Source: a virus. From it: 48,477 nt of DNA. Shown here piece by piece: positions 291 to 48,477 of the stretch (position 1 is the first letter of the stretch; the number at the start of each line of letters is the position of its first letter). The translations under genes and the position numbers were made by a program. Under the pieces are notes generated by a model that did not search any database, was not told where the DNA came from, and saw only the letters and a program-made list of their open reading frames with translations. The stretch is taken from the IMG/VR virus record IMGVR_UViG_3300017917_002003, positions 1 to 48,477 of that record. One strand, 5' to 3'.

Positions 291-1127
291 TTAGAAGTAG
301 TTTTTAGGCTTCTTACCGCTGCTGGTTTTGATTCCAGTGTTTGCTTTGCCAAAGTCTGCGTCACCATTTGCTTTTACGTGGCTGGTTGGAGCTTGTTTCT
401 TAGCCTTGCCATCATAATTACCTTGGTCACCCATGTGAGTACCTTCGGAACCTTCGGTGTCATCAGGATCATAACCTGTGTCTTGATCGCCAAAGTCTGC
501 GTCACCATTTGCTTTTACGTGGCTGGTTGGAGCTTGTTTCTTAGCCTTGCCATCATAATTACCTTGGTCACCCTTGTAATTACCTTCGCCACCAGTGAAA
601 CCATAAGATTCGGCTGGAATACCGTCTTCAAGTTCTTCACCATAGTCTTCACCTTCGTCATCGCCGCCTGCAAGAAGATTTGCAAGTTCGCCAAGACTCA
701 TGCTTCTAAGCTCAGAAAGAGTAAATGTCTCTTCTTCGCCACTGTCCATTTGTTCATCTGCATTGAATACGTTGTCGTCCATAGAAGATGAACCGAAGTT
801 TCCGCCGCCCATTTCGTCCATCTCACGAAGGATTTGGTCAAAAATGTTGCCGGAACGATTAAATGAATCACCGTATATTTCACCGGGATTAGGTTCTTTT
901 GATTTGTTTTTCATAGAATTTTTAGATTTTTTAGCTTTCTTCATTTTACGCTTTACAGCTTCATCATGAGTTTCATCTTCATCTTCATCCTTTTCGGAAT
1001 CTGAACTTTCACCTTTTCTTTCAGCGATTTTCTTTTTAATGAAATCGGGTAGTTCTTTTTTCTCCTCAACAACATTTTGCGGTTTGAGGAAATTGCTTTC
1101 GTAAATTGATACTAGATCGTTTGCCAT
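291..1127 (-). CDS. Acidic, repeat-containing tagged virion protein candidate
   Basis: A 278-aa protein I cannot assign to a named family. It begins MANDLVSIYESNFLKP, matching the short amphipathic N-terminal leader shared with the scaffold and other proteins of this window. A charged Lys/Glu/Asp-rich stretch follows (about residues 25-80), then an acidic Gly-rich middle. The C-terminal third holds two identical 28-residue units (GDQGNYDGKAKK...NGDADFG) encoded by an 85-bp perfect DNA repeat. No membrane segment or enzyme motif is visible. It diverges from terL across 55 bp and ends at a strong terminator, so it is a one-gene transcript. The leader and composition suggest a prohead core or internal head protein; this is inference. 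Confidence 0.75.
   Translation of the reverse strand: MANDLVSIYESNFLKPQNVVEEKKELPDFIKKKIAERKGESSDSEKDEDEDETHDEAVKRKMKKAKKSKNSMKNKSKEPNPGEIYGDSFNRSGNIFDQILREMDEMGGGNFGSSSMDDNVFNADEQMDSGEEETFTLSELRSMSLGELANLLAGGDDEGEDYGEELEDGIPAESYGFTGGEGNYKGDQGNYDGKAKKQAPTSHVKANGDADFGDQDTGYDPDDTEGSEGTHMGDQGNYDGKAKKQAPTSHVKANGDADFGKANTGIKTSSGKKPKNYF
348..573. repeat. 85-bp perfect direct repeat inside a CDS
   Basis: Copies at 348-432 and 489-573 appear identical by eye and are offset by 141 bp. They encode the duplicated 28-aa unit of the acidic tagged protein. The reading frame is kept through the spacer. Confidence 0.9.
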
Positions 1128-1133
1128 ATATGT

Positions 1134-1141
1134 TATTTACT
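1134..1141 (-). promoter_or_regulatory. Late-type promoter box AGTAAATA
   Basis: On the minus strand, ending 6 nt before the ATG at 1127. In the same divergent gap, terL has only a degenerate AATAAGTT at 1169-1176, 6 nt before its ATG. Confidence 0.55.
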
Positions 1142-1182
1142 TAATTTTTATATTTTTTTGTTATTTTGAATAAGTTTAATAT

Positions 1183-2901: not shown

Positions 2902-2907
2902 GACATA

Positions 2908-6738: not shown

Positions 6739-7221
6739 TTATCTTTGTTTTGCCTTTATATCTTTTAATATATAATCAAATTGGTGTAATGCATGGTCAA
6801 ATAAAGAAGATTGTAAATCATTTAATGTATTAATCATCTTCTCGTTGTTGTCATTTTCGTAAAAATTTCTTAAAACTTGTATGCATGTAACAGTTTGAGC
6901 GAATGCTTGGCTAATATCTGCCACAATCTGTATAGGTGTTGCAGTTCTTAAATATTCTTTAACTTCATCCTCAACGTCTGTACGTAAGTTGATTCTTGAG
7001 AATTCTCTAGATTTCTTCAACATTTTTAATATTGTTTCAACTATAGATACATATAAACCTTTTCTTTTTAAAACGGTTAATCCTTTATGAATTCTAATAA
7101 CAAATGTTTTTAATTTTATAAGTTCGTTTTCAACAGAATGATTGTAATCTTCATTTACAACTTTTATGTTATAATTTCTTGGAAAAACGCTTTCCATATA
7201 AATGTCTTCTAAATCTTTCAT
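6739..7221 (-). CDS. Tagged protein of unknown function, helical
   Basis: A 160-aa protein beginning MKDLEDIYMESVFPRNYN, an example of the shared amphipathic N-terminal leader. The rest is mostly helical and charged, with no motif I recognise. I chose the ATG at 7221 over one at 7245 because it forms an ATGA overlap with the stop of the lipoprotein gene, places the leader at the extreme N-terminus, and follows a strong AAGGAGG site (about 13 nt upstream, slightly far). Translation is thus probably coupled to the lipoprotein. Head packaging is inferred from the leader only. Confidence 0.8.
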   Translation of the reverse strand: MKDLEDIYMESVFPRNYNIKVVNEDYNHSVENELIKLKTFVIRIHKGLTVLKRKGLYVSIVETILKMLKKSREFSRINLRTDVEDEVKEYLRTATPIQIVADISQAFAQTVTCIQVLRNFYENDNNEKMINTLNDLQSSLFDHALHQFDYILKDIKAKQR

Positions 7222-8094: not shown

Positions 8095-9693
8095 TTAGCT
8101 AAGGTAGTTGTAGTTGATTGGATCAGGAGAGGTTACGCTTACTGGAGTACCGCAGGTTGTTAAGTGACCAGTGTTAAGGTCGCGTGCGATAATCAAGTGG
8201 TAGAAGTTACCAGAACCGAAGAGGTGGTCAATTACTCCGTAACGGGTCATCATACCTACGTTAGGTGTGAAGGTGTGTGGAGAAATTGTTCTCTGAACAA
8301 GAACAGGGATGTATGGGCAATACACGATACCTGTGTCCCAGAATTCGGAACCCTTATAACCAAGGAGAGCATATTCAACTGGCTCTGCGCGAACGCCTGC
8401 GAGGTATTGTGCCTCAGTGCGGGTATCACGATAGATGTTGAACTGACCTGCGAGTGTTCCTACGCGAGCAACACCATTTGGGTGAGCTTGAATTGCGGAA
8501 GCAATTTCAAATACGCGGAACTCAGGAAGGAGTTGAAGAATTGTGCAAACCTTTGGAGTTGCGATGATAAAGTTAGCAGGACCACGACGGTTACGAATTG
8601 CGATACGGTTAGCTTCTACAACGATTTTTGCATAGAAGTCAACACCACGCTCTGCGAACCAGCGACCATCTGCAAGTTGTGGCTTCCAGACAGAGTAACC
8701 AGCACCGAAACCAGCGTTGAGAGCAACTTGGATCATACGGATTACCATTTCACGGTCAATTTCAGCTTGGATTTCGTAGGACATTGCGTTTGTCATTTCT
8801 GCGTCAATGTCAATACCGTTCATGTTCATCAAGTCTTGCTCAAGTTCCATGCTCCAAGATGTTCCGAGACGACGAGTACCAGCTTCAACAGCTTGTTTCT
8901 CAATCTTAAGGGACATTGTAGGAATGTTGCTGCTTGCTTCGAAGTGAGCAAGAAGTTGTGCAACACCCATATCTTGAGGAGTGAAGTCAAAGCAAGAACC
9001 AGAAGTTGCTGTACCAGCGATACCAAGACCGGAAAGACCAGCAGCAGTGATACCTGTGTGAGCAGTGTAAAGCTTCTGATAACCAGCTTCGTCGGTGTTA
9101 GCACCTGTCCATACGCCGGGACCATTTGGGAAAGTATTTCCTGGGTTACATCCTTTGTCATTGTAAGGAGAACATGCAAGAGCGTCTTGGTCATAGAAAT
9201 AACGAAGAGCAAATGCAAGACCTACAGGACCGCTCATTGGCTGAACGCCTACGATTTCATGAGTGATAAGCTCAGGGAATGTACGACGGATCATAGGAAT
9301 GAGAGTCTTAGGAAGACGAGCATCGCCGGGTGCATACCAGTCAGTGTTACCACCAGTGCCGGGACCAGCGTTACCGTATTGACCAGAAGCATAGGAAGCT
9401 ACTCCGTCTCCACCACCCCATACAGTGTTGCTCATTGTACCACCATCTACGAGTCCTTCGCCAGATGTTTCTTGAATGAGTCTGCGAGGCATGTGACCGT
9501 TCTGACGAAGCCAAGTTTCTTGGTTTTCGCACATAAGAGCGGTTGCGAGTCTCTTTTGATAACCTTCGATAGGTTTAGTTTGATTGTCAGTAAAATCGAG
9601 AATTTTACTCCACTTTGAAATTAATGCTCTGCCTCTTTCCTTTGAAATGAGAGAGGGAGCCGAGTCAACGTAGTTTGAAGCTAGTGATTGCAT
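8095..9693 (-). CDS. gp23: Major capsid protein precursor, T4 gp23-like
   Basis: A 532-aa HK97-fold capsid protein (T4 gp23: 521 aa). Diagnostic are the segment IRRTFPELITHEIVGVQPMS followed by GPVGLAFALRYFYD (gp23: 'IPNLIAFDICGVQPMNSPTGQVFALR'), the GTSWSMELEQDLMNMNGIDI region with INREM-like EIDREMVIRMI, and the C-terminal YKGSEFWDTGIVYCPYIPV with TRYGVIDHLFG. The N-terminal 75 residues look like the cleaved propeptide; LIQE at 72-75 is a plausible gp21-type (I/L)xE site, leaving a mature start TSGEGLVDGG. It ends at a terminator shared with terS and is preceded by its own promoter box. The scaffold gene lies upstream, as in T4. Confidence 0.97.
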   Translation of the reverse strand: MQSLASNYVDSAPSLISKERGRALISKWSKILDFTDNQTKPIEGYQKRLATALMCENQETWLRQNGHMPRRLIQETSGEGLVDGGTMSNTVWGGGDGVASYASGQYGNAGPGTGGNTDWYAPGDARLPKTLIPMIRRTFPELITHEIVGVQPMSGPVGLAFALRYFYDQDALACSPYNDKGCNPGNTFPNGPGVWTGANTDEAGYQKLYTAHTGITAAGLSGLGIAGTATSGSCFDFTPQDMGVAQLLAHFEASSNIPTMSLKIEKQAVEAGTRRLGTSWSMELEQDLMNMNGIDIDAEMTNAMSYEIQAEIDREMVIRMIQVALNAGFGAGYSVWKPQLADGRWFAERGVDFYAKIVVEANRIAIRNRRGPANFIIATPKVCTILQLLPEFRVFEIASAIQAHPNGVARVGTLAGQFNIYRDTRTEAQYLAGVRAEPVEYALLGYKGSEFWDTGIVYCPYIPVLVQRTISPHTFTPNVGMMTRYGVIDHLFGSGNFYHLIIARDLNTGHLTTCGTPVSVTSPDPINYNYLS

Positions 9694-9716: not shown

Positions 9717-10607
9717 TTATTTTCTGAAATTTAAGCCACTCATATACAAATCTTCCATTGGGTTGTTCGGATTGACTTGCTTTTGTGTCTTATTTTCTGA
9801 TTCTTTGATGAATTCATCGGCTACCCTGTTCCGATCAACGATAAATTGTTTGTTTTCATTGAGAAGTGCGGCTTTCTTAGCTTTTTGCTCTTGACGACCA
9901 TACATATCAATGACATATTCAAAATTCTCTTTAATGAATTCTGCGGTTTTACCTTCGAGGCGACCACGAACGAAACGTGCTACTTCAACAGGAAGATTTG
10001 CAGTCTTTTCAGCAAGAACCTTTTTGCTTTCTGCGATCATTTTTGCACGCTTAAGCTCTTGGTTTTCCTTGAGAAGAGAGTCCATCTTCTGCTTACCTTC
10101 TACAACAGCTTCTCTGATGTTGTTTTGAATATACTTCTCGTCAACACCAAGAATCTTACGAGCTTCTTCAATTGCCTTAAGAGCATATTGATTTCTTGCA
10201 GCTTCTTCGATTTCTTGTTTTGGAAGATTCTTCTCGATGTATAAATCAAGGAATTCGTCAACGCTTTCAACAAGACTGTCGCGGTGCTTAATTGCTGTTT
10301 CAGCAATGATTTTCTTATAACCTTCGTGTACGGTAAGAAGTTTGTTGTCGTAATCTTCCATGATTGCATTTACAACCATTTTGATTTTATTTGTGTGGTC
10401 AGCATCAATTGCTGCAACGGCTTTTTCAGAAACGACTTTGAATTTTTCGTATTGAGTCTTTACAGCACTCTCAACTTCCAAATCAACACGCTCCTGAACT
10501 TTGGCATTTACCTTTTCTTCTACAAGGGAAGAAATTGCCTCTAAAGTGTCTTCGGAAAGAATTTCCTTATCCACAGATTCAAAAATTGATTTAAGTTCTG
10601 TTAGCAT
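9717..10607 (-). CDS. gp22: Prohead scaffold (core) protein, T4 gp22-like
   Basis: A 296-aa, almost entirely helical and highly charged protein between protease-side genes and the capsid gene, the T4 gene 21-22-23 arrangement. Long coiled-coil stretches span about residues 15-215. The C-terminal NPNNPMEDLYMSGLNFRK is a tail like that of gp22 scaffolds. It would form the inner core around which the capsid assembles and then be degraded by the prohead protease. The start MLTELKSIFESVDKE carries the leader motif found on other proteins here, consistent with that motif marking prohead core entry. TATAAATA precedes the ATG by 8 nt. Confidence 0.9.
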   Translation of the reverse strand: MLTELKSIFESVDKEILSEDTLEAISSLVEEKVNAKVQERVDLEVESAVKTQYEKFKVVSEKAVAAIDADHTNKIKMVVNAIMEDYDNKLLTVHEGYKKIIAETAIKHRDSLVESVDEFLDLYIEKNLPKQEIEEAARNQYALKAIEEARKILGVDEKYIQNNIREAVVEGKQKMDSLLKENQELKRAKMIAESKKVLAEKTANLPVEVARFVRGRLEGKTAEFIKENFEYVIDMYGRQEQKAKKAALLNENKQFIVDRNRVADEFIKESENKTQKQVNPNNPMEDLYMSGLNFRK

Positions 10608-10867: not shown

Positions 10868-11530
10868 ATGGAACAATCCGTATATAGTGAAATACAAGCC
10901 CTACACCATTATATAGATTTTATCAAAAAATGTTCAAATAAAATATACACCGAAACCAAGTTAGAAAAACATCACATAGTTCCTAAGTTTGTATTATTAA
11001 AAATAAATCCAGAAGCTACAAAGAGAGAATTAGATGAAAATAATGTGGTGTCTCTTTCTAGAGACGATCACATTATCGCACATGATTTATTATCAAAATG
11101 CTACGAAGAAAGTTCTGAGAACTATGTTAAGAATATTTGGTCCATTCAAATATTATCAAAAAATAAACACAAAACCGATAGTATATCAAGGTGTGGAAAG
11201 AATAATCCTTTTTACGGAAAATACCATTCAAACGAAACTAAAAATAAACTCAGTAATTATACTAAACTTACCAGAACAAACGTATCATATAAAGAGTTAT
11301 ATAAAACAGAAGAACGAATCAGAGAAGAAATAAATAAAAGAAATATTACACGATCTGAGAAATTTAAATTAAATAGAGAAAACTTTATCAGGTTGAATGA
11401 AATAGAATTTATAGATGACGAACAAGTAAAAATAAAAGGCGTAATTTATAAAAATATTAAATCAGCCACCAGAATTTTAGGATGGCCTAAAAACAAACTA
11501 TATACATTAAAAAACTACTATGGAAAATAA
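10868..11530 (+). CDS. HNH homing endonuclease with NUMOD domains
   Basis: A 220-aa free-standing homing endonuclease. The HNH core is LEKHHIVPKF (residues 32-41), then NNVVSLSRDDHIIAHDLL (58-75) with the conserved Asn and His residues. A NUMOD3-like DNA-binding motif, NNPFYGKYHSNETKNKLS, follows at 111-128, and a NUMOD1-like element (VIYKNIKSATRILGW) lies near the C-terminus. Such enzymes spread by cutting phage genomes lacking the element. The gene is plus-strand amid minus-strand head genes and AT-richer than its neighbours, with Lys/Asn/Ile-rich codons, all signs of insertion. Its last 11 nt overlap the thioredoxin start. No promoter box or Shine-Dalgarno site is clear. Confidence 0.88.
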   Translation: MEQSVYSEIQALHHYIDFIKKCSNKIYTETKLEKHHIVPKFVLLKINPEATKRELDENNVVSLSRDDHIIAHDLLSKCYEESSENYVKNIWSIQILSKNKHKTDSISRCGKNNPFYGKYHSNETKNKLSNYTKLTRTNVSYKELYKTEERIREEINKRNITRSEKFKLNRENFIRLNEIEFIDDEQVKIKGVIYKNIKSATRILGWPKNKLYTLKNYYGK

Positions 11531-11801
11531 AAAAACACTAAAACTAACTAAATATGGGCATGAATTTTGCCAACCTTGCAAAACCATTAAACCTATTCTC
11601 ACTGAGATTGTAAAGAAATTTGGCGATAAGCTTGAGTTTGAAGATGTGGATACATATAATACTGAACCTCAGAGATTAATTGATTCACAAATTCGTGCTG
11701 TTCCAACTCTTATCCTAACAAAAGACGGAAATGAAGTTTGGCGTCAAGTGGGTTTAATAAGTCGGGACGCGATAGAGGCTAAAATTAGCGAAAATCTATA
11801 A
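11520..11801 (+). CDS. Thioredoxin-like protein
   Basis: A 93-aa thioredoxin-fold protein. The redox motif is CQPC at 17-20, in the usual place after the first strand-loop (TKYGHEFCQPCKTIKP); the conserved cis-proline is in AVPTL (60-64), and the EVWRQVGLISRDAIEAKI end matches the last strand and helix. Phage thioredoxins or glutaredoxins commonly act as electron donors for phage ribonucleotide reductase or modulate polymerases; neither partner is in this window. The ATG lies inside the end of the homing endonuclease gene (11-nt overlap), so translation may be coupled to it, or a promoter may lie within it. The gene ends at a bidirectional terminator. Confidence 0.9.
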   Translation: MENKKTLKLTKYGHEFCQPCKTIKPILTEIVKKFGDKLEFEDVDTYNTEPQRLIDSQIRAVPTLILTKDGNEVWRQVGLISRDAIEAKISENL

Positions 11802-11803
11802 AG

Positions 11804-11834
11804 AAAAAGAGGCAGATTATTTCTGCCTCTTTTT
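11804..11834. terminator. Bidirectional intrinsic terminator
   Basis: AAAAAGAGGCAGA, loop TTATT, TCTGCCTCTTTTT: a perfect 13-bp stem. Its right arm overlaps the last codons of the minus-strand gene ending at 11817, so terminator and coding sequence share bases. Confidence 0.93.
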
Positions 11835-12029
11835 TTGTTTTAATTTTTTCTCCATTTTTGGTAATTCCTTGTAATAATCTGGAAATTCTTTTAAATGGTC
11901 TTTTGCTATTTGAACTGTTTCTTCGGGAGATTTGTGATGTTCTTTCTCAGTCTCGTATCCTTTTTCTGCGGATTTTTCACCAAATTTATCAACTAAACTT
12001 TTATATAATTTATCAAATTCTTTTGTCAT
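11817..12029 (-). CDS. Small tagged protein resembling DUF5661
   Basis: A 70-aa protein. It begins MTKEFDKLYKSLVDKFG, the shared N-terminal leader type, and continues with EKEHHKSPEETVQIAKDHLK and EFPDYYKELPKME. The pattern 'a.iA.dHLkE.PdYY..L..mE' is that of small phage and bacterial proteins of the DUF5661 type; no function is established. The ATG overlaps the upstream stop in an ATGA arrangement, so translation is likely coupled. The end is very basic (KKLKQKKRQK). It may be an internal head protein, inferred from the leader and the head-operon position. Confidence 0.8.
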   Translation of the reverse strand: MTKEFDKLYKSLVDKFGEKSAEKGYETEKEHHKSPEETVQIAKDHLKEFPDYYKELPKMEKKLKQKKRQK

Positions 12030-12355
12030 ACATCATAACCGTGGTCTTCTATAATCTCATTAGCTAAATCACGAATTTTATCTGCGCAGCTTTCTATTTT
12101 TTTACGAAAACTCTTATACATTGCTTCTTTTGCAAGATCGTCTAAATCTGATACAATTGATAATATTTCTCTTGCAACTTCTACATGACTTTCGGCTACA
12201 TCATCTTCGCAGCCGCAATCTTCTTCCTCATTTTCTTCTTCTTCGCGTGTACCTTCAATCGCCTTTACAGGAGAAAGAGGCAAGGCTTGTCTAATAACAC
12301 CTAAAATGGATGGAGCTAACATATTTTCGTAAATTGTTTCTAAATCTTGTTTCAT
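12026..12355 (-). CDS. Tagged acidic head-operon protein of unknown function
   Basis: A 109-aa protein beginning MKQDLETIYENMLAPS, again the shared leader. A very acidic segment at about 54-72 (EGTREEEENEEEDCGCEDDV, with a CGC pair) separates the leader from a helical C-terminal half. No family is recognised. It starts inside the stop codon of the protease gene (TAATG overlap) and overlaps the next gene by ATGA, so protease, this protein and the DUF5661-like protein form one translationally coupled operon. Co-expression with the protease fits a prohead core role. Confidence 0.78.
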   Translation of the reverse strand: MKQDLETIYENMLAPSILGVIRQALPLSPVKAIEGTREEEENEEEDCGCEDDVAESHVEVAREILSIVSDLDDLAKEAMYKSFRKKIESCADKIRDLANEIIEDHGYDV

Positions 12356-13035
12356 TATAGTGCCTTGAGGAATTTTTCAAGAGACTCACGAATATACTCG
12401 TTGATTGCATCTCTGTGTTTGTTTGGATATTTAGCTAATTTCTTTTCTAAATTTGCATAATTTTCTGCAACACGACCATCATCAGAAATGATATATTCTT
12501 TGTTTTCAAGGATACCGTTTACAAATGCTGTGGCAACAGAAGGATCGAATACGTTGTCAACAAGAAGAACGATTGGACTTTTTACAACATTATAACCATC
12601 AGTGCTTTCAGAGATTTGACCAAGGCACTTTGTTGATTTACCAAATTTTACACCATCTTCGACTAAGGTTTCAAGCACTTTACCAGAAGGTGTTCGAAGA
12701 ATAAGCGATTTACCAATGTAGTAATCAGGATCATGCTTATCACGTTCAAGATGAACAATCTTATCGGCTAATTTTCCAAGATCAACATCAGGGCTAGAAG
12801 AGTGATTTAATTCGCCGCCGCCTCTGTTTTGTTGAACATACTCTTTAATGTATGTATCAACCGCAGGAATCATGTCTTCCTCCAAATACTTACGACGGTT
12901 CTTGTTGCCGCGATTCATCATTATGTATTGACCACGGATATAAATTCTTTTCTCGTTGTCTCGGTTAGTCTGTTCTGACAAAAATTCCAAATCATAATTT
13001 GGTTGCTCAACGATGAGTTTTCTGGATATAATCAT
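12355..13035 (-). CDS. gp21: Prohead core protease, T4 gp21-like
   Basis: A 226-aa serine protease of the phage head-maturation type (T4 gp21: 212 aa). Signature elements are YIRGQYIMMNRGNKN near residue 32, the catalytic-His motif GELNHSSSP (His78), the YYIGKSLILRTPSGK strand pair (105-119), and the nucleophile motif GKSTKCLG (Ser134), equivalent to 'GvSsRGlG' in relatives. It would be built into the prohead, activated on assembly, and cleave capsid, scaffold and internal proteins after (I/L)xE-type sites. The start follows TATAAATA by 5 nt. In this phage it is the likely processor of the N-terminal leaders described under findings. Confidence 0.95.
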   Translation of the reverse strand: MIISRKLIVEQPNYDLEFLSEQTNRDNEKRIYIRGQYIMMNRGNKNRRKYLEEDMIPAVDTYIKEYVQQNRGGGELNHSSSPDVDLGKLADKIVHLERDKHDPDYYIGKSLILRTPSGKVLETLVEDGVKFGKSTKCLGQISESTDGYNVVKSPIVLLVDNVFDPSVATAFVNGILENKEYIISDDGRVAENYANLEKKLAKYPNKHRDAINEYIRESLEKFLKAL

Positions 13036-13854: not shown

Positions 13855-14955
13855 ATGGAGGATTACAACTATAATTTTGAAAAAAGAAATCTACTTTTAC
13901 ACTTCGTATCCGCATTTGACGGTGTGAAGATTAAAAGATTTGATGGGCAGAAATTTGCAAAAGAAGTTATAAAAGTTCCTTTTACATATGCTCCAAAAAG
14001 TCATATTTTATATGATGTCATTGGCGTTACTGACACAATTCGCCTTCCAGTCATGGCAGCGGAAATCAAATCAGAAAGTCGTGACAACGAAAGAATAAAA
14101 AATAAAATTGAGAAAATAGTTTATAAAAACAATGATGGAAACTACGTTGCTCTTCAAGCAATACCGTGGAATATTGAAATTGACTTAACAATTTTGACCA
14201 AGTATCAAGAGGACATGGATCAAATTATTCAGAATTTTTCAGTAAACACCAATCCTTATGCAATAGTATCTTGGCAAGAACCAAAGTCAGGAAGAGAAAT
14301 ACGAACAGAAATAATTTGGAACGGTGATGTTTCTTTTCAATATCCTGCAACAGCAAACTATAGTCCAAAAGAACCACCATTTCGTGTTACTGCAACAACC
14401 TCCTTTACTATTAAAGGGTATCTATTTAAAACATTTGTAGAAAACCCAAAACCTATTTGTTTAATAAACACTGATTACTCATTTACAGACACCTTTTTCT
14501 GTAATTATGCATCATTAACCGCATACGCCTCAGAAAGCACTACAGAATCATACACTATAACTGGACGACCTGTTATGAGATTTGTAGCACCTTATTATGT
14601 AAAAGATGGAACATCTCCATTTATTACTGTGACAGGATATAGTTTCCATGACACAATTGGAGTATATGTAAGTGGGTCAAATAGTGAAATGTATCCAGCT
14701 TCAACTTTCCAACCATTTTCAGGTTTAGATTCGTTCGATGCGTTCCCCGTGGAACAATTTAATAAATCCTCCAACAAACTTTCATTCTTTCTTCCTGCCC
14801 CAAATTCAAGTGGTTTTATTGACATTATTGCTGTAAATTCATGTGGATATGGTTCTTTAACAGAAGATTCCGCCACATACGCACCATATACAAGCGGATT
14901 AATATCTCTTGTGAACTATCCGCTTACATGTGCCTCCGCAGTTTCTTGCGTTTGA
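13855..14955 (+). CDS. gp15: Tail completion and sheath stabiliser, gp15-like, copy A
   Basis: A 366-aa protein, longer than T4 gp15 (272 aa). The N-terminal 200 residues follow gp15: FDGVKIKRFDG, EVIKVPFTYAPKSHI, TIRLPVMAAEI, IPWNIEIDLTILTKYQEDMD, QIIQNF, and a closing TATTSFTIKGYLFK strand. gp15 forms the hexameric ring that ends the tail and joins it to the neck. Residues about 235-345 are an added Ig-like domain of IPT/TIG appearance (APYYVKDGTSPFITVTGYSF, VYVSGSN, LSFFLPAPNSSGFIDIIAVN, CGYGSLTED). The gene is followed after 16 nt by a paralogue. The two probably share an ancestor by tandem duplication. Confidence 0.87.
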   Translation: MEDYNYNFEKRNLLLHFVSAFDGVKIKRFDGQKFAKEVIKVPFTYAPKSHILYDVIGVTDTIRLPVMAAEIKSESRDNERIKNKIEKIVYKNNDGNYVALQAIPWNIEIDLTILTKYQEDMDQIIQNFSVNTNPYAIVSWQEPKSGREIRTEIIWNGDVSFQYPATANYSPKEPPFRVTATTSFTIKGYLFKTFVENPKPICLINTDYSFTDTFFCNYASLTAYASESTTESYTITGRPVMRFVAPYYVKDGTSPFITVTGYSFHDTIGVYVSGSNSEMYPASTFQPFSGLDSFDAFPVEQFNKSSNKLSFFLPAPNSSGFIDIIAVNSCGYGSLTEDSATYAPYTSGLISLVNYPLTCASAVSCV

Positions 14956-29321: not shown

Positions 29322-31565
29322 ATGAATCCGACAGATCGTTTACTAAAATCATTACCCCACATCAGAAGCTTATTCGGGGACGACGAATTTCAGAAAGTAA
29401 ATACAAGATACGAATTATTTGACAACTCTTCAATATCAAAGGATAAAAGAGTTCAAAGACTTTCCGTTACAAACGCATTTGATTATGACTTAGAATACAT
29501 TAACGGTGGTTCTCGCATTTCAAACATGTATTATCATCAGTTGATGTATAATTCTACATCTGATGACAAGAAACGTCGTCTTGATGACTATCGTTCAATG
29601 GCAAACTATCCAGAAGTTGAACGTGCATTAACAGAAATTGTAAACGAATTCTTTGAAAAAGACGATAAAGGACGATATGTTAAATTTGATCTTCGTGGTG
29701 ATTATAACGACGAAGTAAAAACTCTTATCGAAGAAGAATTTTTCCATTTTCTTGAAATATTCAAGTTTGATGAAAAAGGTTCGAGAACAATTCGTGACTG
29801 GTTAATCGAAGGTGAAGTTTTCTTTGAAAATATTGTTTCTATAAAGAAACCAGAACTCGGAATTATTGGTGTTACCAGAATATCATCAGATCGTTGTGAT
29901 CCTCTTTATTATGATTTAGACAACGAGTTGATTGACTGTTTCTTATTAAGAGCCAAATCGCCTGACATGTATCCTTTCCAGTGGGGAAAATTCACTGCAC
30001 AAGCATCATACGGAACAAATCACCAACATCAATTGTTATTCATGAATGATAAGCAAATAACTTACTTTGCAAATGACCAATGGAGTGATGGTAAAAAGTT
30101 TAAACTTCCTGTTTTACATTATGCACACCGTCCATATCGTCAATTATCTCTTATTGAAGATGCAACTGTTATATACATGCTTGTTCGTGCGCCAGAACGC
30201 CTTGTTTTTACTGTTGATGTTGGTAACATGCAACCTAGTAAGGCAGAACAATATATGAAGCGTCTTATGGGCCAATTCTGGAGCAAGAAAACAATGTCCA
30301 GAGATGGTCGTATCGAGAATGTTTATGATCCGCAAGGTATGCTTGAAAACTATTGGTTCCCTGTGCGCGAGGGCGGAAAAGGCAGTGATGTGAAATCTAT
30401 TGGTGGCGGTAAAGCAAGCCCTGATAACCTTGAAATCTTAAACTATTTCGTTCAGAAACTTTATCAAAGTCTTAAAGTTCCTCTTTCACGTTTAAATTCG
30501 GAAGCAGCTTTCTCTGATGGTGAAAATATTACAAGAGAAGAACTTGCATTCGCTGAATACATTATCAACATTCAAAAGCTTTGGGCAGCAGCACTTAAAA
30601 AATCCTTTATTGTTCACTTAAAATTAAAAGGCAAGAAAATCTTGGAATCTGCTAAGAAATTGAATATTGATAAAATCATGATTCGTGGTGGAAATATACC
30701 ACAAAACAGCTTTCAAGTTTCACAAGTTTTCAAAGACTCATTTACTAGTAAATGCTGGGACAACTATGATTTATTAGCAGAAGAAGTTTTTGATACTCTT
30801 GAAGTTCTTCGTGAAAATGTAGATTCTCAAAAAGAAAGATTTGAAAATGAAATTAAAGTTGTTGAAGAGTCTATTAGTAAACTTGATGAAGGGGTTATAC
30901 TTGAGACGGAAAATTTCAATAGAAATGTTTTAGAAAAATCTTTAGAAGGACTCTACGAAGAATTATCTATTATACAAGAACAACAGACAGATTTAGAGGA
31001 AATAAACTCTGATATGTTGTCATGGTGGGAACAATACGATTTAAGAGAAGAAGACATTCATGTTAAATTTGTTGAACCAAGCCAATTCTTCGCTCTTCGT
31101 GAACAACAATTATTCCAAATTAAATATGATAACTTTAACAACATGAGTCAGAATGATTTCGTATCAAATACTCTTGCATTAAAAATGTATCTTGGTTGGA
31201 CAGACAAAGAAATTTTAACAAACTTGGATATGCTTCGTAAGGATGCTGCATTCCGCTGGGAACTTTCTCAAATCGAACAAAATGGTCCTGACTTCCGTGA
31301 AAAAGCTCTTGAAGAAATTCAAGGAACTGCTATGGCAGGCGGTGAAGGTGGTGAAATCGGTCTTGGTGGATTGGGCGGTGGCGGAGGTCCACCTCCTCTT
31401 CCAAGTCCATCAGGCGGTGGCGGTGGTGAAGGAGGTGGTGGGGCAGAACCATTACCAGAATTCGGAGCACCTCTTCCAGCAGGAACCGAAGGAGGTCCAT
31501 CAGCAGAAGGTGGAGCAGAAGCAGCAGGCGGTGAAGAGGGTCCAACTCCTCCGCCAACAGCATAA
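29322..31565 (+). CDS. gp20: Portal protein, T4 gp20-like
   Basis: A 747-aa portal (T4 gp20: 524 aa), the dodecameric gate for DNA at the head vertex. Diagnostic segments are YRSMANYPEVERALTEIVNE, IRDWLIEGEVFFENIV, the crown/stem region RAPERLVFTVDVGNMQPSKAEQYM with the following LMGQFWSKK, and ENYWFPVREGGKGSDVKSIGGG with YFVQKLYQSLKVPLSRL. The last 80 residues are a low-complexity Gly/Pro/Glu/Ala tail. The start is ATG 29322, set by CATAAGTA 5 nt upstream; the frame stays open to a TTG at 29289 that overlaps the previous stop. It partners terL, gp13 and gp14. Confidence 0.96.
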   Translation: MNPTDRLLKSLPHIRSLFGDDEFQKVNTRYELFDNSSISKDKRVQRLSVTNAFDYDLEYINGGSRISNMYYHQLMYNSTSDDKKRRLDDYRSMANYPEVERALTEIVNEFFEKDDKGRYVKFDLRGDYNDEVKTLIEEEFFHFLEIFKFDEKGSRTIRDWLIEGEVFFENIVSIKKPELGIIGVTRISSDRCDPLYYDLDNELIDCFLLRAKSPDMYPFQWGKFTAQASYGTNHQHQLLFMNDKQITYFANDQWSDGKKFKLPVLHYAHRPYRQLSLIEDATVIYMLVRAPERLVFTVDVGNMQPSKAEQYMKRLMGQFWSKKTMSRDGRIENVYDPQGMLENYWFPVREGGKGSDVKSIGGGKASPDNLEILNYFVQKLYQSLKVPLSRLNSEAAFSDGENITREELAFAEYIINIQKLWAAALKKSFIVHLKLKGKKILESAKKLNIDKIMIRGGNIPQNSFQVSQVFKDSFTSKCWDNYDLLAEEVFDTLEVLRENVDSQKERFENEIKVVEESISKLDEGVILETENFNRNVLEKSLEGLYEELSIIQEQQTDLEEINSDMLSWWEQYDLREEDIHVKFVEPSQFFALREQQLFQIKYDNFNNMSQNDFVSNTLALKMYLGWTDKEILTNLDMLRKDAAFRWELSQIEQNGPDFREKALEEIQGTAMAGGEGGEIGLGGLGGGGGPPPLPSPSGGGGGEGGGGAEPLPEFGAPLPAGTEGGPSAEGGAEAAGGEEGPTPPPTA

Positions 31566-33544: not shown

Positions 33545-34435
33545 ATGAAGAAATGTATAAGTCGTACTTTAGATAAAGATTTTATTTTAAATCTTATAAA
33601 CAATGGATATTCGAGAAAGCAAATTGCAGAAACGTGTAACTGCTCGATACATATTATTAAACGATTCTTAAAAATAAATAGTTTAAAAATAATAAAATAT
33701 GAACCTAAAGAGCATAGAGAGAATCTTATCAGAGATAAAGATAAAATATTAGAGTTTTATCAAAAAACAAATAGTTTACAGAAAACTGCTCATTATTTTA
33801 AAACCTCTAGAAATGCATTAGCAGAATTTTTTAAAAAGATAAACTTTCAATACAAGTCGAATAATCATAAATGTTTATACTCAGAAATAGAGAATATAAA
33901 AATTTTATATTATGAGAAAAACAAAACTTTACAAGAAATAGGAGAAATATACAATTGTTCTTTTCCTAAAATTTCATCCCTATTAAAAAATAATGGCTGT
34001 TCTTTAAAAAATAAAACCGAATTACTAAAAGAAAGAAACAAATCAGAAAGTTTTCAGAGAAAATGTATATCCGGTTCAGGTAGAAAAAAAGATTATATTT
34101 TACCATCAGGAACCATTATAAAACTAAGAGGATATGAACCTAATTTTCTCGATTATGTTTTTGAAAATAATATTTTAATGGAATCTGATATTATTTTTAA
34201 TCCTCCTCGAATACAGTACAACTACGATAGTAAAGAACATTATTATTATCCCGATTTCTTCATACCTAAATTTAATTTAATCTTAGAAACTAAATCATCT
34301 TGGATTTTGAAAAAACAAGGACACGAAAAGAACTTACAGAAAGAAAAAGCAACTATTTCAAAAGGATATAACTTTATGTTAATAATAGACAACAATTTCG
34401 AAGAGATTACGAAGATACTAAATCTTTATAAATAA
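33545..34435 (+). CDS. Vsr-like (EDxHD) homing endonuclease with HTH repeats
   Basis: A 296-aa mobile endonuclease. The C-terminal catalytic domain carries the Vsr/EDxHD pattern: LRGYEPNFLD (194-203), an acidic SDII near 214, EHYYYPDFFIP (231-241) and LILETKSSW (245-253). The N-terminal 155 residues hold at least three helix-turn-helix-like units (YSRKQIAETCNCSIHIIKRF, LQKTAHYFKTSRNALAEFF, LQEIGEIYNCSFPKISSLL), likely for site recognition. Composition is AT- and Lys/Asn-rich compared with the neighbouring gp13, consistent with insertion. A degenerate CTAAGTA lies 5 nt before the ATG. It separates gp13 from the small tagged genes. Confidence 0.85.
   Translation: MKKCISRTLDKDFILNLINNGYSRKQIAETCNCSIHIIKRFLKINSLKIIKYEPKEHRENLIRDKDKILEFYQKTNSLQKTAHYFKTSRNALAEFFKKINFQYKSNNHKCLYSEIENIKILYYEKNKTLQEIGEIYNCSFPKISSLLKNNGCSLKNKTELLKERNKSESFQRKCISGSGRKKDYILPSGTIIKLRGYEPNFLDYVFENNILMESDIIFNPPRIQYNYDSKEHYYYPDFFIPKFNLILETKSSWILKKQGHEKNLQKEKATISKGYNFMLIIDNNFEEITKILNLYK
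34427..34434 (+). promoter_or_regulatory. Late-type promoter box TATAAATA
   Basis: Overlaps the end of the endonuclease gene and ends 5 nt before ATG 34440. Confidence 0.65.
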
Positions 34436-34439: not shown

Positions 34440-34838
34440 ATGACTAAAAACTTTGACATTTTTGTAGAAAAATTAATAAATTCTTTTGAAGAATTACCTA
34501 TTTCGCGGCCTTATGGTTTCTGGATAAGTCCAGAAGGCAGGATGTATTCTGTTTTCAATATGGACCATTTTGGGGAAGCACGTAATATAATAAATTTTTT
34601 TGAAACTCGTCTAAAAGATGTGCATGAAAAAGATAAGGGTAATATTAAAGATTTCTTAATAAGAAAAGGATTTCTAAGAACTGTATTCATGGGAGATGAA
34701 ATGTTAATTGATAATAACTATTACGATTATGAACAAGGTAAATATATAATAGTTCCCCCAAAACCTAAAGCAGATAAAACGGCGAAAGATATAGCTATTT
34801 TCTATAATTATCGTCCAGTTTACACAAGTATAGATTAA
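34440..34838 (+). CDS. Tagged protein of unknown function
   Basis: A 132-aa protein beginning MTKNFDIFVEKLINSFEEL, a clear member of the shared leader group. The remainder (PYGFWISPEGRMYSVFNMDH, then a helical segment and DYEQGKYIIVPPKPKAD) shows no family I recognise. It is the first of three consecutive plus-strand genes whose proteins carry nearly the same leader. Head packaging is inferred from the leader. Confidence 0.78.
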   Translation: MTKNFDIFVEKLINSFEELPISRPYGFWISPEGRMYSVFNMDHFGEARNIINFFETRLKDVHEKDKGNIKDFLIRKGFLRTVFMGDEMLIDNNYYDYEQGKYIIVPPKPKADKTAKDIAIFYNYRPVYTSID

Positions 34839-34863: not shown

Positions 34864-35178
34864 ATGACTGAAAAATTTGATTTATTTGTAGAGAGCCTAC
34901 TATTAGAACGTTACAAGCGTTGTAAAGCATCAACTCTTCCTGAACTTTCAGACAATCCTCGTTATATTTTCTCAAAGTGTGCTCCAAACCCTTATACTTC
35001 GGGTTTTAAAAGAATTTATTACCTAAGAAGAGGAGAACCACTTTCTCTTAAAAAGTGTAAAACAAATCCTCGCGTTGGAACAGCACGTTACGAAGAATGT
35101 CGTTTAGCTAAACTCGCATACATGAAAAGAATGAAGAAAAAAGCTATGACACAGAAAGAAAATATTCAGGGTAAGTAA
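34864..35178 (+). CDS. Tagged small basic protein
   Basis: A 104-aa very basic protein beginning MTEKFDLFVESLLLERYKR. After the leader it has a Cys-containing middle (ASTLPELSDNPRYIFSKCAP) and a Lys/Arg-rich C-terminal half (RRGEPLSLKKCKTNPR, KRMKKKAM), so it may bind nucleic acid. No named family is recognised. LLLE at 11-14 would be a possible gp21-type cleavage site. The start is set by the GATAAATA box 5 nt upstream. Confidence 0.78.
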   Translation: MTEKFDLFVESLLLERYKRCKASTLPELSDNPRYIFSKCAPNPYTSGFKRIYYLRRGEPLSLKKCKTNPRVGTARYEECRLAKLAYMKRMKKKAMTQKENIQGK

Positions 35179-35182: not shown

Positions 35183-35506
35183 ATGACTGAAAATTTTGAT
35201 ACTTTTGTAGAAAGCATTTTAACCGAAAAGAAATCTCCTGCATGGCAGAGAAAAGAAGGTAAAAATCCTTCTGGTGGTTTGAATGCAAAAGGCGTAGCGT
35301 CTTATAGAAGACAACACCCCGGTTCTAAGCTTAAAACAGCAGTTACTACAAAGCCTTCTAAACTCAAGAAAGGCAGCAAAGCAGCAAAACGCAGAAAATC
35401 ATTCTGTTCTCGTATGAAAGGCATGAAGAAGAAATTAACTTCTGCCAAAACTGCACGCGATCCAAACAGCCGTATTAATAAATCACTTCGTAAGTGGAAC
35501 TGCTAG
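35183..35506 (+). CDS. Tagged basic protein resembling DUF6321-type phage proteins
   Basis: A 107-aa protein: leader MTENFDTFVESILTEKK, then NPSGGLNAKGVASYRRQHPG and the C-terminal RRKSFCSRMKGMKKKLTSAK with DPNSRINKSLRKWNC. The last two segments match a small, very common phage protein type of unknown function (the 'NP.GGL.AKG...RRKSFC.RM.GMK...W.C' pattern). Relatives I know lack this leader, so it appears to have been added. The protein is strongly basic and might coat DNA inside the head. It starts 4 nt after the previous stop, with a weak GTAAGTA 5 nt before the ATG. Its stop overlaps that of the convergent PAS gene. Confidence 0.82.
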   Translation: MTENFDTFVESILTEKKSPAWQRKEGKNPSGGLNAKGVASYRRQHPGSKLKTAVTTKPSKLKKGSKAAKRRKSFCSRMKGMKKKLTSAKTARDPNSRINKSLRKWNC

Positions 35507-41874: not shown

Positions 41875-42339
41875 TTACAATTTATTTATAACTTTGTCAG
41901 AATTCCAGATTACTATTTCTCTTAGGGTGTTATTGTTATAATAAAAAATGCCATCATAACCTTGAGGTATAGCACGGGAACTTATTTCCTTTCCTAAATA
42001 TCCTTTATTCTCTTCAACTCGTTCAACTAATTGCATTGCTTTTTCTTTTGACAGTCCTAGAATTTCTAATGCTTGAACACAAGGATGAACACGGGTATCA
42101 TGATACGAATTTATTTTTATCGGATTTTTAACGTCCAAATAAACCTCCGCTACACTGGCACCTGACTCAGTTGCATATCTCCATGCAAGTTCTTTATTTG
42201 GTGTGAAATAGGCACCTGTTCCTAAAGCTCCTCTTCCCATTTTTATAGGAGAAAAGCCATCCCATTTACCACCATGATAAACAGGACCGACTAATTCTCT
42301 ATTTTCAAAAAATAGTTTGTAGAAGCTACTAAAATTCAT
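41875..42339 (-). CDS. Tagged ADP-ribosyltransferase-like protein
   Basis: A 154-aa protein. After a leader MNFSSFYKLFFENRE it has a compact ART-fold pattern: YHGG (21-24), GALGTGAYFTPN (37-48), AWRYATESGASVAEVYLDVK (52-71), GYDGIFYY (127-134) and REIVIWN (140-146). The His of YHG, the Tyr of GAYFTP and Glu141 could form an H-Y-E type NAD-binding triad. T4 packages its ART, Alt, in the head and injects it to modify host RNA polymerase; the leader here suggests the same delivery. It sits between a virion protein and gp6 in a baseplate operon, starting within the previous stop region. Catalytic activity is untested. Confidence 0.8.
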   Translation of the reverse strand: MNFSSFYKLFFENRELVGPVYHGGKWDGFSPIKMGRGALGTGAYFTPNKELAWRYATESGASVAEVYLDVKNPIKINSYHDTRVHPCVQALEILGLSKEKAMQLVERVEENKGYLGKEISSRAIPQGYDGIFYYNNNTLREIVIWNSDKVINKL

Positions 42340-45243: not shown

Positions 45244-45626
45244 TTTATAATTTTATTAGCTTCTTCATGAGTTCCTACCCAATTAACATAGAATGTATCG
45301 TTTTCAATAAATCCGAGTGCTCTTGGGGCTGTTCTACCTCTTAATTTAAGAATAACATCAGACCGAACGCCTTTTCTTCTGGTATAGCCTTGATATGTAT
45401 CTTTTTCGTAAATTCTTTGGGTTTTGTAGGTATCCCAATCTCTTATAGCCATTCGTAATGCATCAGCAGGATCAAATCTTCCCGGTCTATTTTTTGCTAA
45501 AATTTTCTCTGCATCAGAATTAGGAATTACAACAATCTTACTTGGCGGTCTTGCTAAAACTGCATAATTTTCAGAGAGAATGTTTTCTAATAATTGTTCA
45601 ACTATACTGTCGAATTGTTGTGTCAT
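45240..45626 (-). CDS. Tagged small protein with HigB-like C-terminus
   Basis: A 128-aa basic protein beginning MTQQFDSIVEQLLENILSEN, a strong match to the shared leader. The C-terminal segment ALGFIENDTFYVNWVGTHEE with ANKI (104-126) recalls the closing strand of HigB/RelE-type mRNA interferases, 'v.fi....vyi.wvGTH.eYdki', and the basic middle (YTRRKGVRSDVILKLRGRTA) would suit RNA binding. If real, this would be a packaged nuclease-like effector, but the resemblance covers only a short stretch. LSE at 17-19 is a candidate cleavage site. The start lies 5 nt after AATAAATA. Confidence 0.72.
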   Translation of the reverse strand: MTQQFDSIVEQLLENILSENYAVLARPPSKIVVIPNSDAEKILAKNRPGRFDPADALRMAIRDWDTYKTQRIYEKDTYQGYTRRKGVRSDVILKLRGRTAPRALGFIENDTFYVNWVGTHEEANKIIN

Positions 45627-45631
45627 ACATG

Positions 45632-45649: not shown

Positions 45650-45654
45650 AAAGT

Positions 45655-46194
45655 ATGAAATTTCAACAATTATACGATGTAGTAAAAGAAGATTTTGATA
45701 GTTCTGATGAAAGCGTAGAAAGTATCTTAACTATTTTAAGTAATCACCCGAAAGAAAAAATAGCATTTTTAGACGGTCCAGTTATAATAAAATCTACAAA
45801 ATATGAACAAAATCCCGAATCTTTTACATTTGATAAACCAAAAGGATTTTGGTATGCGCAAGGCGGTGCATGGGCAGAGTATATGAAAAGATTTGAACAA
45901 GAAAGATTTGAAGATTATCACTACATCGCCTCACTAAACATAAATTATTCAAATGTTTTAAAAATTGATACTCAAAGAAAATTCCAAGATTTTCACGACA
46001 CCTATCTTGTAAAAAGAAAGTTTGGACCCGCTATAGACTGGAAACGTGTATCAAATGAATATAAAGGAATTGAAATAATTCCATACTTTCCAGAATTTCG
46101 ACGTACTCATCTTTGGTACAATATGTGGGATTTGGCAAGCGGTTGTATTTGGGATTTGAGCGCAATCAAAGGATACGAAATAATCCATAAATAA
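45655..46194 (+). CDS. Tagged protein of the KPKGFWYA...SGCIWD type, possible ART-like
   Basis: A 179-aa protein beginning MKFQQLYDVVKEDFD. The body has KPKGFWYAQGGAWAEYMKRF (61-80), YHYIASLNINYSNVLKIDT (88-106), IDWKRVSNEYKGIEIIPY (127-144) and WDLASGCIWDLSAIKG (158-173). I recognise this pattern from uncharacterised proteins of bacteria, viruses and plants; its layout (GFWYa turn, 'vL.i', final SGCIWD) recalls ADP-ribosyltransferase folds, but this is not certain. It starts 5 nt after AATAAATA; an ATG at 45580 is in frame but lies inside the divergent gene. It leads a plus-strand run of tagged genes to the window edge. Confidence 0.8.
   Translation: MKFQQLYDVVKEDFDSSDESVESILTILSNHPKEKIAFLDGPVIIKSTKYEQNPESFTFDKPKGFWYAQGGAWAEYMKRFEQERFEDYHYIASLNINYSNVLKIDTQRKFQDFHDTYLVKRKFGPAIDWKRVSNEYKGIEIIPYFPEFRRTHLWYNMWDLASGCIWDLSAIKGYEIIHK
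46186..46193 (+). promoter_or_regulatory. Late-type promoter box CATAAATA
   Basis: Embedded in the last codons of the previous gene and ending exactly 5 nt before ATG 46199. Confidence 0.62.
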
Positions 46195-46198
46195 CTTT

Positions 46199-47215
46199 AT
46201 GAAGTTTTCAAAGTATTATAGTTTAGTTTCTGAAATGATTTTCCGTCACAATAATAGTGATGGAAAATACATTATAGCATGGAAAGATGGCATTTGGAGA
46301 ATATCTGATGAGGAAGATGAGGAAACGTATAAAAAATTATGCGAAGATTTAAAATTTGATGAAAAAATAGACAATATCTTCGGCATAATAGAATATATCG
46401 AAAACGATAGACCTGATATTTTTGTTGGAACAGTTCAAGGAAAGGAGGAGCTACATCCGTATTTTAAAAGCTCATTTACATATGGTCCAGATTCACCACT
46501 AATAAGAAAGATTATGAAGATTCTTGGTCTTTCTCTTTATGTAGATACCAGTGGAGACGAAGAAAGTACAGATGTAACTTATGTTGATAAAGAAATACCA
46601 CATTATCCACAATTTGCATATCACGGAACAACTGTTTCCGCAGCATTAAAAATAATTAAATTTGGTCTTAGACCCGACAATGACATTGAAAATTGGAAGT
46701 TTAAATTTTATGATAGAGTGTTTCTTACAACACGTAAAATTGATGCGATATTTCATGCTAATAATGCAGCAAACAAACAAAAATCTCTTCCAATAATATT
46801 TCGTTTCAAAATACCCGATCCGAGATTAATCGCATTAGATTATGACGTAGCAGTTTCTTTTGGCGAATTAGATAAAGAACCGTCTTATAAACAGATAAGA
46901 TCATTGTACCCACACAATCACCTCGAAGTTGTAAAAGGAAGTATCGTCAAAAAAATGTCTCCAAAAACAGATTTTACAAGAGCAACAGGAACATTTTCTT
47001 ATAGAGGAAGAATTCCTGCATCATTTATAGATGAGATGGGCTACAGAAACGGAGAATTTGATATAATGGATACCGAATCATATTTAACAACAGAAAATAT
47101 GATTAATGTTTACGATTTAAATGACATGAGAGAGGTGTTGGAAAAATTAGAAGAATTTAATTTTTATGATCCAACAATGGATTATGATGAATATTCAGAA
47201 CAATGGGAGGATTAA
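46199..47215 (+). CDS. Tagged ADP-ribosyltransferase-like protein (PARP/KptA-like)
   Basis: A 338-aa protein with leader MKFSKYYSLVSEMIF. The catalytic-looking region is FAYHGTTVSAALKIIKFGLR (139-158), VFLTTRKIDAIFHA (174-187), PIIFRFKIP (198-206) and SYRGRIPASFI (267-277). 'YHGT....a..I...GL', a downstream 'vfLt....a..ya' turn and a closing 'G.IP..fI' strand are the pattern of KptA/PARP-like NAD-using enzymes. The N-terminal 130 residues and acidic C-terminus are unassigned. With T4 Alt as a guide, it may be an injected modifier of host proteins or RNA. It ends 2 nt before the Nudix ATG. Confidence 0.82.
   Translation: MKFSKYYSLVSEMIFRHNNSDGKYIIAWKDGIWRISDEEDEETYKKLCEDLKFDEKIDNIFGIIEYIENDRPDIFVGTVQGKEELHPYFKSSFTYGPDSPLIRKIMKILGLSLYVDTSGDEESTDVTYVDKEIPHYPQFAYHGTTVSAALKIIKFGLRPDNDIENWKFKFYDRVFLTTRKIDAIFHANNAANKQKSLPIIFRFKIPDPRLIALDYDVAVSFGELDKEPSYKQIRSLYPHNHLEVVKGSIVKKMSPKTDFTRATGTFSYRGRIPASFIDEMGYRNGEFDIMDTESYLTTENMINVYDLNDMREVLEKLEEFNFYDPTMDYDEYSEQWED
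47205..47210 (+). promoter_or_regulatory. Shine-Dalgarno site deciding the Nudix start
   Basis: GGGAGG inside the final codons of the upstream ART-like gene, 7 nt before ATG 47218. It is one of the few clear ribosome binding sites in the window and belongs to an operon-internal gene that lacks a promoter box. Confidence 0.7.
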
Positions 47216-47217
47216 AT

Positions 47218-47724
47218 ATGACATTTAAAAAATTTTACAGATTAAAACTAGAATCCATTGAGGACGAAATACGTTCTCAAAATGGTGAATATCATTTGGG
47301 TAGTGGTGAAAACCCCATGTTTTTTGGAAACAAAGGTGCAGGAGTTTTAGTTTATTGTCAAAAAACTAACCGATTTCTTTTAGGATTACGCTCTAATCTT
47401 GTTAATGAACCCGGTACATGGGGAACTTTTGGCGGAAAAATAGAAGGAGATATTGATCCTAAAGCCGCAGCATTAAGAGAATTAACAGAAGAAACAGATT
47501 ATAGCGGACCTATAAATTTAATTCATTTTGATACATTCAAAAGTGGAAGTTTTCATTTTTTTAATTTTTTAGGAGTTGTAGACGAAGAATTTACTCCAAG
47601 ATTAGATTGGGAAAACGAAGATGCACAATGGTTTTCATCCGATGAATTTCCAAGAAACTTACACTTTGGATTGCGCAGATTGATTCCTCATTTAGGAGTT
47701 GTAATTTCAAGATTAAATAGTTAA
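47218..47724 (+). CDS. Tagged Nudix hydrolase
   Basis: A 168-aa Nudix-fold enzyme. The leader MTFKKFYRLKLESIEDE precedes a Nudix domain from about residue 38 (GNKGAGVLVYCQKTNRFLLG, WGTFGGKIE). The Nudix box at 72-93 keeps the metal-binding RELTEE core (87-92), but the usual Glu at the E-x7-R position is Ile, so activity may be altered. Such enzymes cleave nucleoside diphosphates linked to another group, including ADP-ribose, NAD or RNA caps. Being next to ART-like genes suggests handling of NAD or ADP-ribose products. I chose ATG 47218, 7 nt after GGGAGG, over 47203, which lies inside the previous gene and would bury the leader. Confidence 0.88.
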   Translation: MTFKKFYRLKLESIEDEIRSQNGEYHLGSGENPMFFGNKGAGVLVYCQKTNRFLLGLRSNLVNEPGTWGTFGGKIEGDIDPKAAALRELTEETDYSGPINLIHFDTFKSGSFHFFNFLGVVDEEFTPRLDWENEDAQWFSSDEFPRNLHFGLRRLIPHLGVVISRLNS

Positions 47725-47725
47725 A

Positions 47726-48477
47726 ATGCGTTTTAAAGAATATTATAATTTATACCTTGAGAGTTTAGAAAATTGGAGCGGTGAATGGGTTCATTATACA
47801 GACTCTCCATATCTATCATTTAGACCAAATGCATTTCACTCTGATCCCACAGGTCTTTATTTCTTTCCAAAAGAATTTAAACCTGTAAGCTCTTACACTT
47901 CCAAAAACTATAAATTCACTGCAAAATTAAAGCCTGATGCAAGAGTTTTAGATTTATCAAAAGTAACAAGAGAGGAAATGACTCGTTTGGCAGATTTGGC
48001 AGGAGTTGAAAAGTTTATCGAAATTGATGATTTATATAATTCTCTTCAAAGAGTTTTTCGTATGACCGATGGACCTAATAAAAAGGCAGGAGCATTTAAT
48101 CGTTTTTTCTTTAATGCAGGCTATGATGCTATTTTTGATGATATTGCTGTCATTTACGGTAAAACCGAAACCCAACTCATTGTATTAAATCCAAGATGTT
48201 TAATGGATGTGGAAATGCACATTAACAAATATCCAATATTCAAAGAATTAAATCTTGCAAATGAAGAAATAATTGACCGTTTAACTCCTTACTCTGATAA
48301 TGTTGAAACTTCTAAAGTAAGAAAAGAAAGAGAAGGTTGGTATAGAGATGACAGAGGAGAATTAATTCCTGATTATGCCATTAAAAAATATACAACTTTT
48401 AAAAAAGGTGAAAATAGCGTTACAATTTTAGCATACAGTAATAGGGGTAGCAGAAGAAGTAATGAAATAAGTTTTTC
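47726..48477 (+). CDS. Tagged ADP-ribosyltransferase-like protein, cut by the right window edge
   Basis: At least 250 residues, open at the window end. The leader MRFKEYYNLYLESLENW is followed by WVHYTDSPYLSFRPNAFHSD, TGLYFFPKEF (42-51), YKFTAKLKPDARVLDLSKV and later AGYDAIFDDIAVIYGK with QLIVLNPRCL. The pattern (HYT/HG strand, 'tGlYFfp', 'v.l.pdarvldl', 'gYDai.dd', 'q.vvlnp') is that of small ART-fold domains often attached to phage and mobile-element proteins. It starts 1 nt after the Nudix stop, without a promoter box, so it is in one operon with it. The predicted C-terminus is missing. Confidence 0.78.
   Translation, partial: MRFKEYYNLYLESLENWSGEWVHYTDSPYLSFRPNAFHSDPTGLYFFPKEFKPVSSYTSKNYKFTAKLKPDARVLDLSKVTREEMTRLADLAGVEKFIEIDDLYNSLQRVFRMTDGPNKKAGAFNRFFFNAGYDAIFDDIAVIYGKTETQLIVLNPRCLMDVEMHINKYPIFKELNLANEEIIDRLTPYSDNVETSKVRKEREGWYRDDRGELIPDYAIKKYTTFKKGENSVTILAYSNRGSRRSNEISF

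Follow-up and report, generated by a model that had tools for sequence, protein, structure and literature searches.

The window analysed here, i.e., the entire 48.5-kb stretch of IMGVR_UViG_3300017917_002003, is a fragment on record as a virus contig and derives from an uncultured T4-like phage. It encodes a major capsid protein, a prohead protease, and a portal protein of the T4 type (Table 1), and family scans likewise identified a terminase and a gp15-type sheath stabiliser. The presence of a gp21-like protease, as claimed in the initial annotation, was borne out by matches to PF03420 and phrog_207 and by alignment with T4 gp21; the two S77 proteases align around LNH, S, and D. Among the matches listed for isolated phages, those of cyanophages are the closest to the capsid protein (approximately 31-32% identity), and 54-96% matches are present at 35 loci of uncultured relatives. 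Two neighbouring ORFs (13855-14955 and 14972-16237), the first of which encodes the sheath stabiliser, begin alike and possibly reflect a duplication.

Table 1. Head genes, N-terminal leaders, and associated domains in the window.
Feature	Position	Strand	Support or remark
Major capsid protein, gp23-like	8095..9693	-	PF07068 9e-87; [LIMV]QE site conserved near T4 processing position (alignment)
Prohead protease, gp21-like	12355..13035	-	PF03420 3.4e-19; phrog_207 9.6e-35
T4-type portal protein gp20	29322..31562	+	PF07230 1.4e-84
Candidate head scaffold	9717..10607	-	Position between protease and capsid genes; alignment
Class A leader MTKNFDIFVEKLINSFEE, 132-aa predicted cargo protein	34440..34493	+	Late-promoter core upstream
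Class A leader MTEKFDLFVESLLLE, 104-aa predicted cargo protein (ERYKRC module)	34864..34908	+	
Class A leader MTENFDTFVESILTE, immediately 5' of DUF6321 domain	35183..35227	+	
DUF6321 domain, predicted cargo	35228..35506	+	PF19846 4.5e-20; bare homologs in Pelagibacter podophages
Class A leader MTQQFDSIVEQLLE, 128-aa protein	45585..45626	-	Late-promoter core
Class A leader without cleavage Glu MTKEFDKLYKSLVD, 70-aa DUF5661 protein	11988..12029	-	PF18905 2.3e-9
Class B leader MNFSSFYKLFFE, ADP-ribosyltransferase	42304..42339	-	ART-PolyVal PF18760 1.4e-13 (ORF 41875-42339)
Class B leader MKFQQLYDVVKE, 179-aa protein	45655..45690	+	phrog_8582 7e-12
Class B leader MKFSKYYSLVSE, 338-aa protein	46199..46234	+	phrog_11974; relatives in Vibrio T4-like phages
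Class B leader MTFKKFYRLKLE, NUDIX hydrolase	47218..47253	+	NUDIX 1.6e-15
Class B leader MRFKEYYNLYLE, protein cut by contig end	47726..47761	+	ORF start
Class C leader MANDLVSIYE, 278-aa acidic repetitive protein	1098..1127	-	
Class C leader MKDLEDIYME, 160-aa protein	7192..7221	-	
Class C leader MKQDLETIYE, 109-aa acidic protein, T4 gp67/gp68 neighbourhood	12326..12355	-	
Class C motif MLTELKSIFE, scaffold N-terminus	10578..10607	-	

The initial annotation had listed 14 proteins that share a short amphipathic leader. All 14 N-termini were found as in-frame ORF starts, with a correction to the position of the MKFQQLYDVVKED ORF, which begins at 45655. The proteins are indeed unrelated, given that BLASTP assigns each body to a family of its own (14 in total) when the first 22 residues are removed. 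While the recurrence of the starts is real, they form three classes rather than one shared leader, with the consensus sequences MTxxFDxFVxxIL.E (class A), M[KNRT]FxxYYxLxxE (class B), and MxxDLxxIYE or MLTELKSIFE (class C). A hydrophobic pair at i,i+3 occurs in 14/14 leaders, a count that carries no null rate. Among individual proteins, the class A leader is retained in all relatives found of the 34864 protein and also in G003_22342, the homolog of the 34440 protein. The last ORF, from 47726, extends past the contig end and its product had no match in family scans. Searches of viral contigs with the 41875 and 46199 bodies recovered no relatives, sequence searches of the PDB returned matches at chance level only, and AlphaFold2 predictions made without alignment were unusable for the 45655 and 46199 proteins (pLDDT 34.5 and 32.8, respectively). 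The tagged cluster at 34440 is adjoined by a gene for a HTH/DUF7487 protein (33545-34435) that has the look of a homing-endonuclease-type insertion.

We used regular expressions written from the window to compare N-termini with internal-methionine segments in held-out contigs of relatives. The class A expression MTxxF[DN]x[FLIVY] matched 25/944 N-termini compared to 1/3587 internal methionines (Fisher, p = 1.5e-16), with corresponding counts of 9 and 0 for class B (p = 7e-7) and 14 and 5 for class C (p = 1e-6); since the matches are partly orthologs of window genes, there are fewer independent events than these counts. A genome-wide motif search, as called for in the initial annotation, yielded 85 proteins from 41 BLASTP body families across the window and eight related contigs, a regex-defined set that may include chance matches. 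No class A or B leaders were present among the 684 ORFs of phage contigs with a bare DUF6321 domain. The helical hydrophobic moment was 0.40 for tagged starts and 0.26 for other starts (p = 1e-15). Different codons encoded identical class A residues in 920 of 2125 comparisons, and the DNA upstream of tagged genes was 0.37 identical compared to 0.33 when shuffled, with only a promoter core in common. These differences in codons and upstream DNA indicate that the leader is conserved at the protein level.

The shared promoter core, TAAATA, belongs to the consensus of T4 late promoters. Of the tagged genes, 55/85 have this core no more than 40 nt 5' of the ATG, mostly at a distance of 11-14 nt, compared to 3.4% expected by density; among untagged genes it occurs within the same 40 nt in 211/561. 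By region, TAAATA precedes 43-58% of genes in structural regions and 3-16% of genes in most other regions, with values of 21-27% in parts of contigs G011 and G010. The full TATAAATA was not enriched in tagged genes compared to other genes (p = 0.34), in contrast to TAAATA. This distribution upstream of structural and tagged genes is consistent with TAAATA serving as a T4-like late promoter in the lineage of the window. The common TAAATA, together with the side-by-side arrangement of three class A genes (34440, 34864, 35183), is what would be expected if the leaders reflected recent gene duplication or a translation-initiation element shared at the DNA level, with no targeting peptide involved. 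However, the bodies are unrelated and late genes that lack a leader have the promoter core too; we rejected duplication on the basis of the codon and upstream comparisons, and an origin at the DNA level is scarcely credible.

Class A leaders usually terminate in a hydrophobic-x-Glu motif. The motif [LIVMF]xE was found within residues 9-20 of 18/25 class A proteins compared to 145/576 other starts (p = 2e-6), with the Glu concentrated at positions 14-15, and was not found in this interval in the other 7/25. We rejected Glu10 of the FVE motif, the cleavage site originally proposed, because its conservation does not extend beyond the window; the conserved Glu of class A is that at position 14/15. 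The DUF5661 leader (11817-12029) lacks a cleavage Glu in all five orthologs. As the class C expression itself demands a Glu, this class provides no independent test of the processing site. The tag is probably removable by protease.

The strongest evidence for capsid targeting comes from a natural experiment involving DUF6321. This domain starts bare in Pelagibacter podophages that lack the protease, gp23, and T4 portal. In contrast, T4-like records contain a leader or Glu junction ahead of the domain (slashes marking the junction), e.g., ILTE/KKSPAWQ in the window and INE/AAW in Sf-CH11, and the same pattern is seen in P-TIM68, ACG-2014f, three contigs, and two relatives of the window. A leader or junction was present in 9/9 T4-like records compared to 0/7 records of at least 30 kb that lack T4 head genes; inclusion of two more large fragments without T4 head genes, both with a junction, shifts this to 9/9 compared to 2/9 (p = 0.001, uncorrected for kinship). 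We also compared entire contigs using a rule for T4-type leaders fixed earlier, namely the adjusted rule for cyanophage S-CREM2 described below. Such leaders were found in 19/179 ORFs of contigs with Glu junctions and 1/684 ORFs of bare contigs (p = 8e-13, uncorrected for kinship; p = 9e-12 after removing one duplicate contig). In these records and contigs, leaders and Glu junctions are associated with T4-like genomes.

Some relatives encode several modules in one protein. In G007_45618, the leader is followed by ILE/SCWKGY and then PVQE/SSTPAWQRKEG, i.e., a capsid-like VQE site separates the two modules. A multi-module protein of marine virus AG-345-E15 contains VDEA at the boundaries before its CWKGY and DUF6321 modules. 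Moreover, the leader ahead of the ART-PolyVal domain is of class B in the window and of class A in contig G003. These pairings, together with the junction proteins, support exchange of leaders between modules, and the Glu residues at the boundaries suggest that the protease may cleave at the inter-module junctions.

We compared these leaders with the virion proteins of S-CREM2, as given in Table 3 of PMC10665884. Leaders are present on the virion-detected SAM hydrolase (MKDFDSFLEE), kinase (VKRFDAFLTEE), and cytidylyltransferase (MKNFSSFLTEA), and also on gp13 and gp136. The virion Cas9 (L179:7704-10313) contains LRFASFMAEA at residues 17-26, which suggests that its true start may lie downstream of the annotated one. 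A first regular expression, which predates sight of the proteome-labelled N-termini, matched 4/26 non-structural virion proteins and 4/167 undetected proteins, a modest enrichment (p = 0.013); a second expression, adjusted afterwards and hence post hoc, matched 5/26 and 2/167, respectively (p = 5e-4). A broad expression was not specific when applied to all listed virion proteins (p = 0.17). The authors of the proteome state that contamination of virions cannot be excluded (PMC10665884). In S-SZBM1, the virion cytidylyltransferase begins MRFRQFIIEA; one of three ORFs selected by the strict rule was detected and two were undetected in a shallow list of 30 virion proteins. The enzymes of both phages, which were detected in purified virions, share the leader geometry of the window, but their MKxFxxFLTE sequence is unlike that of classes A and B. 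There is no mention of a leader in the available parts of either paper.

The amphipathic nature of the starts would also suit a general anchor to another site, e.g., the inner membrane or tail. We nevertheless consider such an anchor very improbable, since the leader or Glu junction of DUF6321 tracks T4-like head genes, a protease-like site closes class A leaders, and tagged cyanophage proteins occur in virions.

T4 is the main source of known injected effectors of T4-like phages. Its internal proteins IPI-IPIII and Alt resemble the tagged proteins of the window in several respects: a short N-terminal propeptide on unrelated bodies, a hydrophobic or aromatic residue pair three apart, a hydrophobic-x-Glu motif, an S77 protease encoded in the same phage, and an ADP-ribosyltransferase among the cargo. 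The comparison originally drawn with the T4 leader holds, as ipII and ipIII begin MKTYQEFIAEA and match the window in pair spacing (Y4/F7) and hydrophobic-x-Glu. Residues 4 and 7 of IPIII are mainly responsible for targeting, and residues 8 and 10 for processing (PMC9026906). In contrast to the 10 residues of T4, class A and B leaders span 12-15 residues and set the Glu at a greater distance from the hydrophobic pair; the window also differs in its lineage-specific leader sequence and in having many more tagged proteins. None of the window bodies matched the IPI-III or Alt families in Pfam or PHROGs.

It is very likely that the leaders are lineage-specific capsid-targeting propeptides of the T4 kind, with docking, cleavage, and ejection with the DNA predicted here from sequence comparison. 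Late in infection, each tagged protein would be synthesised with a short N-terminal amphipathic helix, through which the hydrophobic pair would dock it onto the growing scaffold core. The docked protein would become enclosed as the capsid shell forms, and the gp21-like protease would then cut after hydrophobic-x-Glu to free the cargo inside the head, including the ADP-ribosyltransferase, NUDIX hydrolase, DUF6321, and others. By analogy with T4, this cargo would be ejected together with the DNA and delivered into the host. The idea of a modular capsid-address label is well supported, albeit indirectly, by comparison and by related virion proteomes, but not for all 14 proteins as one class. The best reading is that about nine cargo proteins, i.e., those of classes A and B except 11817, carry such a propeptide.

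Several known systems share elements of this arrangement. Polyvalent proteins with ART-PolyVal domains are predicted to be injected with DNA (Iyer et al. 2017, PMC5512222), and the window encodes the same domain. Whereas polyvalent proteins have two or more domains, the window cargo is single-domain in family scans and each protein has its own leader; relatives do have multi-module forms with Glu junctions. In phiKZ and SPN3US, propeptides of ejection proteins are cut by the prohead protease after x-x-Glu, and gp53 and gp54 have a common N-terminus (PMC5694885); these propeptides mostly exceed 100 residues and belong to another head lineage. Given that a capsid-targeting tag was proposed earlier as a general device of T4-like phages (PMC9026906), the advance lies in the scale, the lineage-specific variants, and the inter-module junctions, which appear to be new judging by the open-access literature that was searched. 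We regard as evenly balanced the case for a broader model, in which T4-like phages draw on a common repertoire of effector modules, among them DUF6321, ADP-ribosyltransferases, and the CWKGY module. Each lineage would re-address these modules with its own leader or link several through prohead-protease sites into one polyprotein, with the effectors released inside the capsid; the leader would then predict injected effectors, including virion-packaged Cas9. With a readable address tag, sequence would be enough to list what uncultured and environmental phages carry as cargo. Such a tag would also help account for the enzymes in cyanophage virions, and it makes targeting testable by simple fusions.

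Class C motifs likely sit mostly on head-core proteins, including the scaffold, and would mostly label the core proteins themselves. The scaffold, the acidic gp67-like protein (12026-12355), and the DUF5661 protein (11817-12029) all look like core proteins, the last being a candidate. The acidic 291-1127 protein, which occurs in 7/9 clustered contigs, is probably also a head-core protein rather than injected cargo. The candidate scaffold had no match in family scans and its alignment with T4 gp22 was not significant, but its SIFESV is identical by eye to a stretch inside gp22; its motif may therefore be ordinary scaffold sequence. This tempers the claim that the scaffold has the leader, even though MLTELKSIFE does form its N-terminus. 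The proposal that all 14 proteins form an injected set likewise stands in part, since class A and B proteins are cargo-like and at least four others resemble head-core proteins. The occurrence of class C on the scaffold and its neighbours, and of a 70-aa class A protein without the cleavage Glu, would fit leaders that act as assembly motifs fixing permanent proteins of the head core or shell, with the tagged proteins structural and never injected. This is unlikely, as class A and B bodies include an ADP-ribosyltransferase, NUDIX hydrolase, and DUF6321 and differ among close relatives, and the tagged virion proteins of S-CREM2 are mainly enzymes.

Two further features were observed among these genes. 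The acidic 291-1127 protein contains the internal repeat GNYDGKAKKQAPTSHVKANGDADFG. Between the scaffold and core genes (10868-11801), the opposite strand carries a 220-aa ORF along with a gene for thioredoxin, and a similar thioredoxin-like ORF is found at the same place in several relatives.
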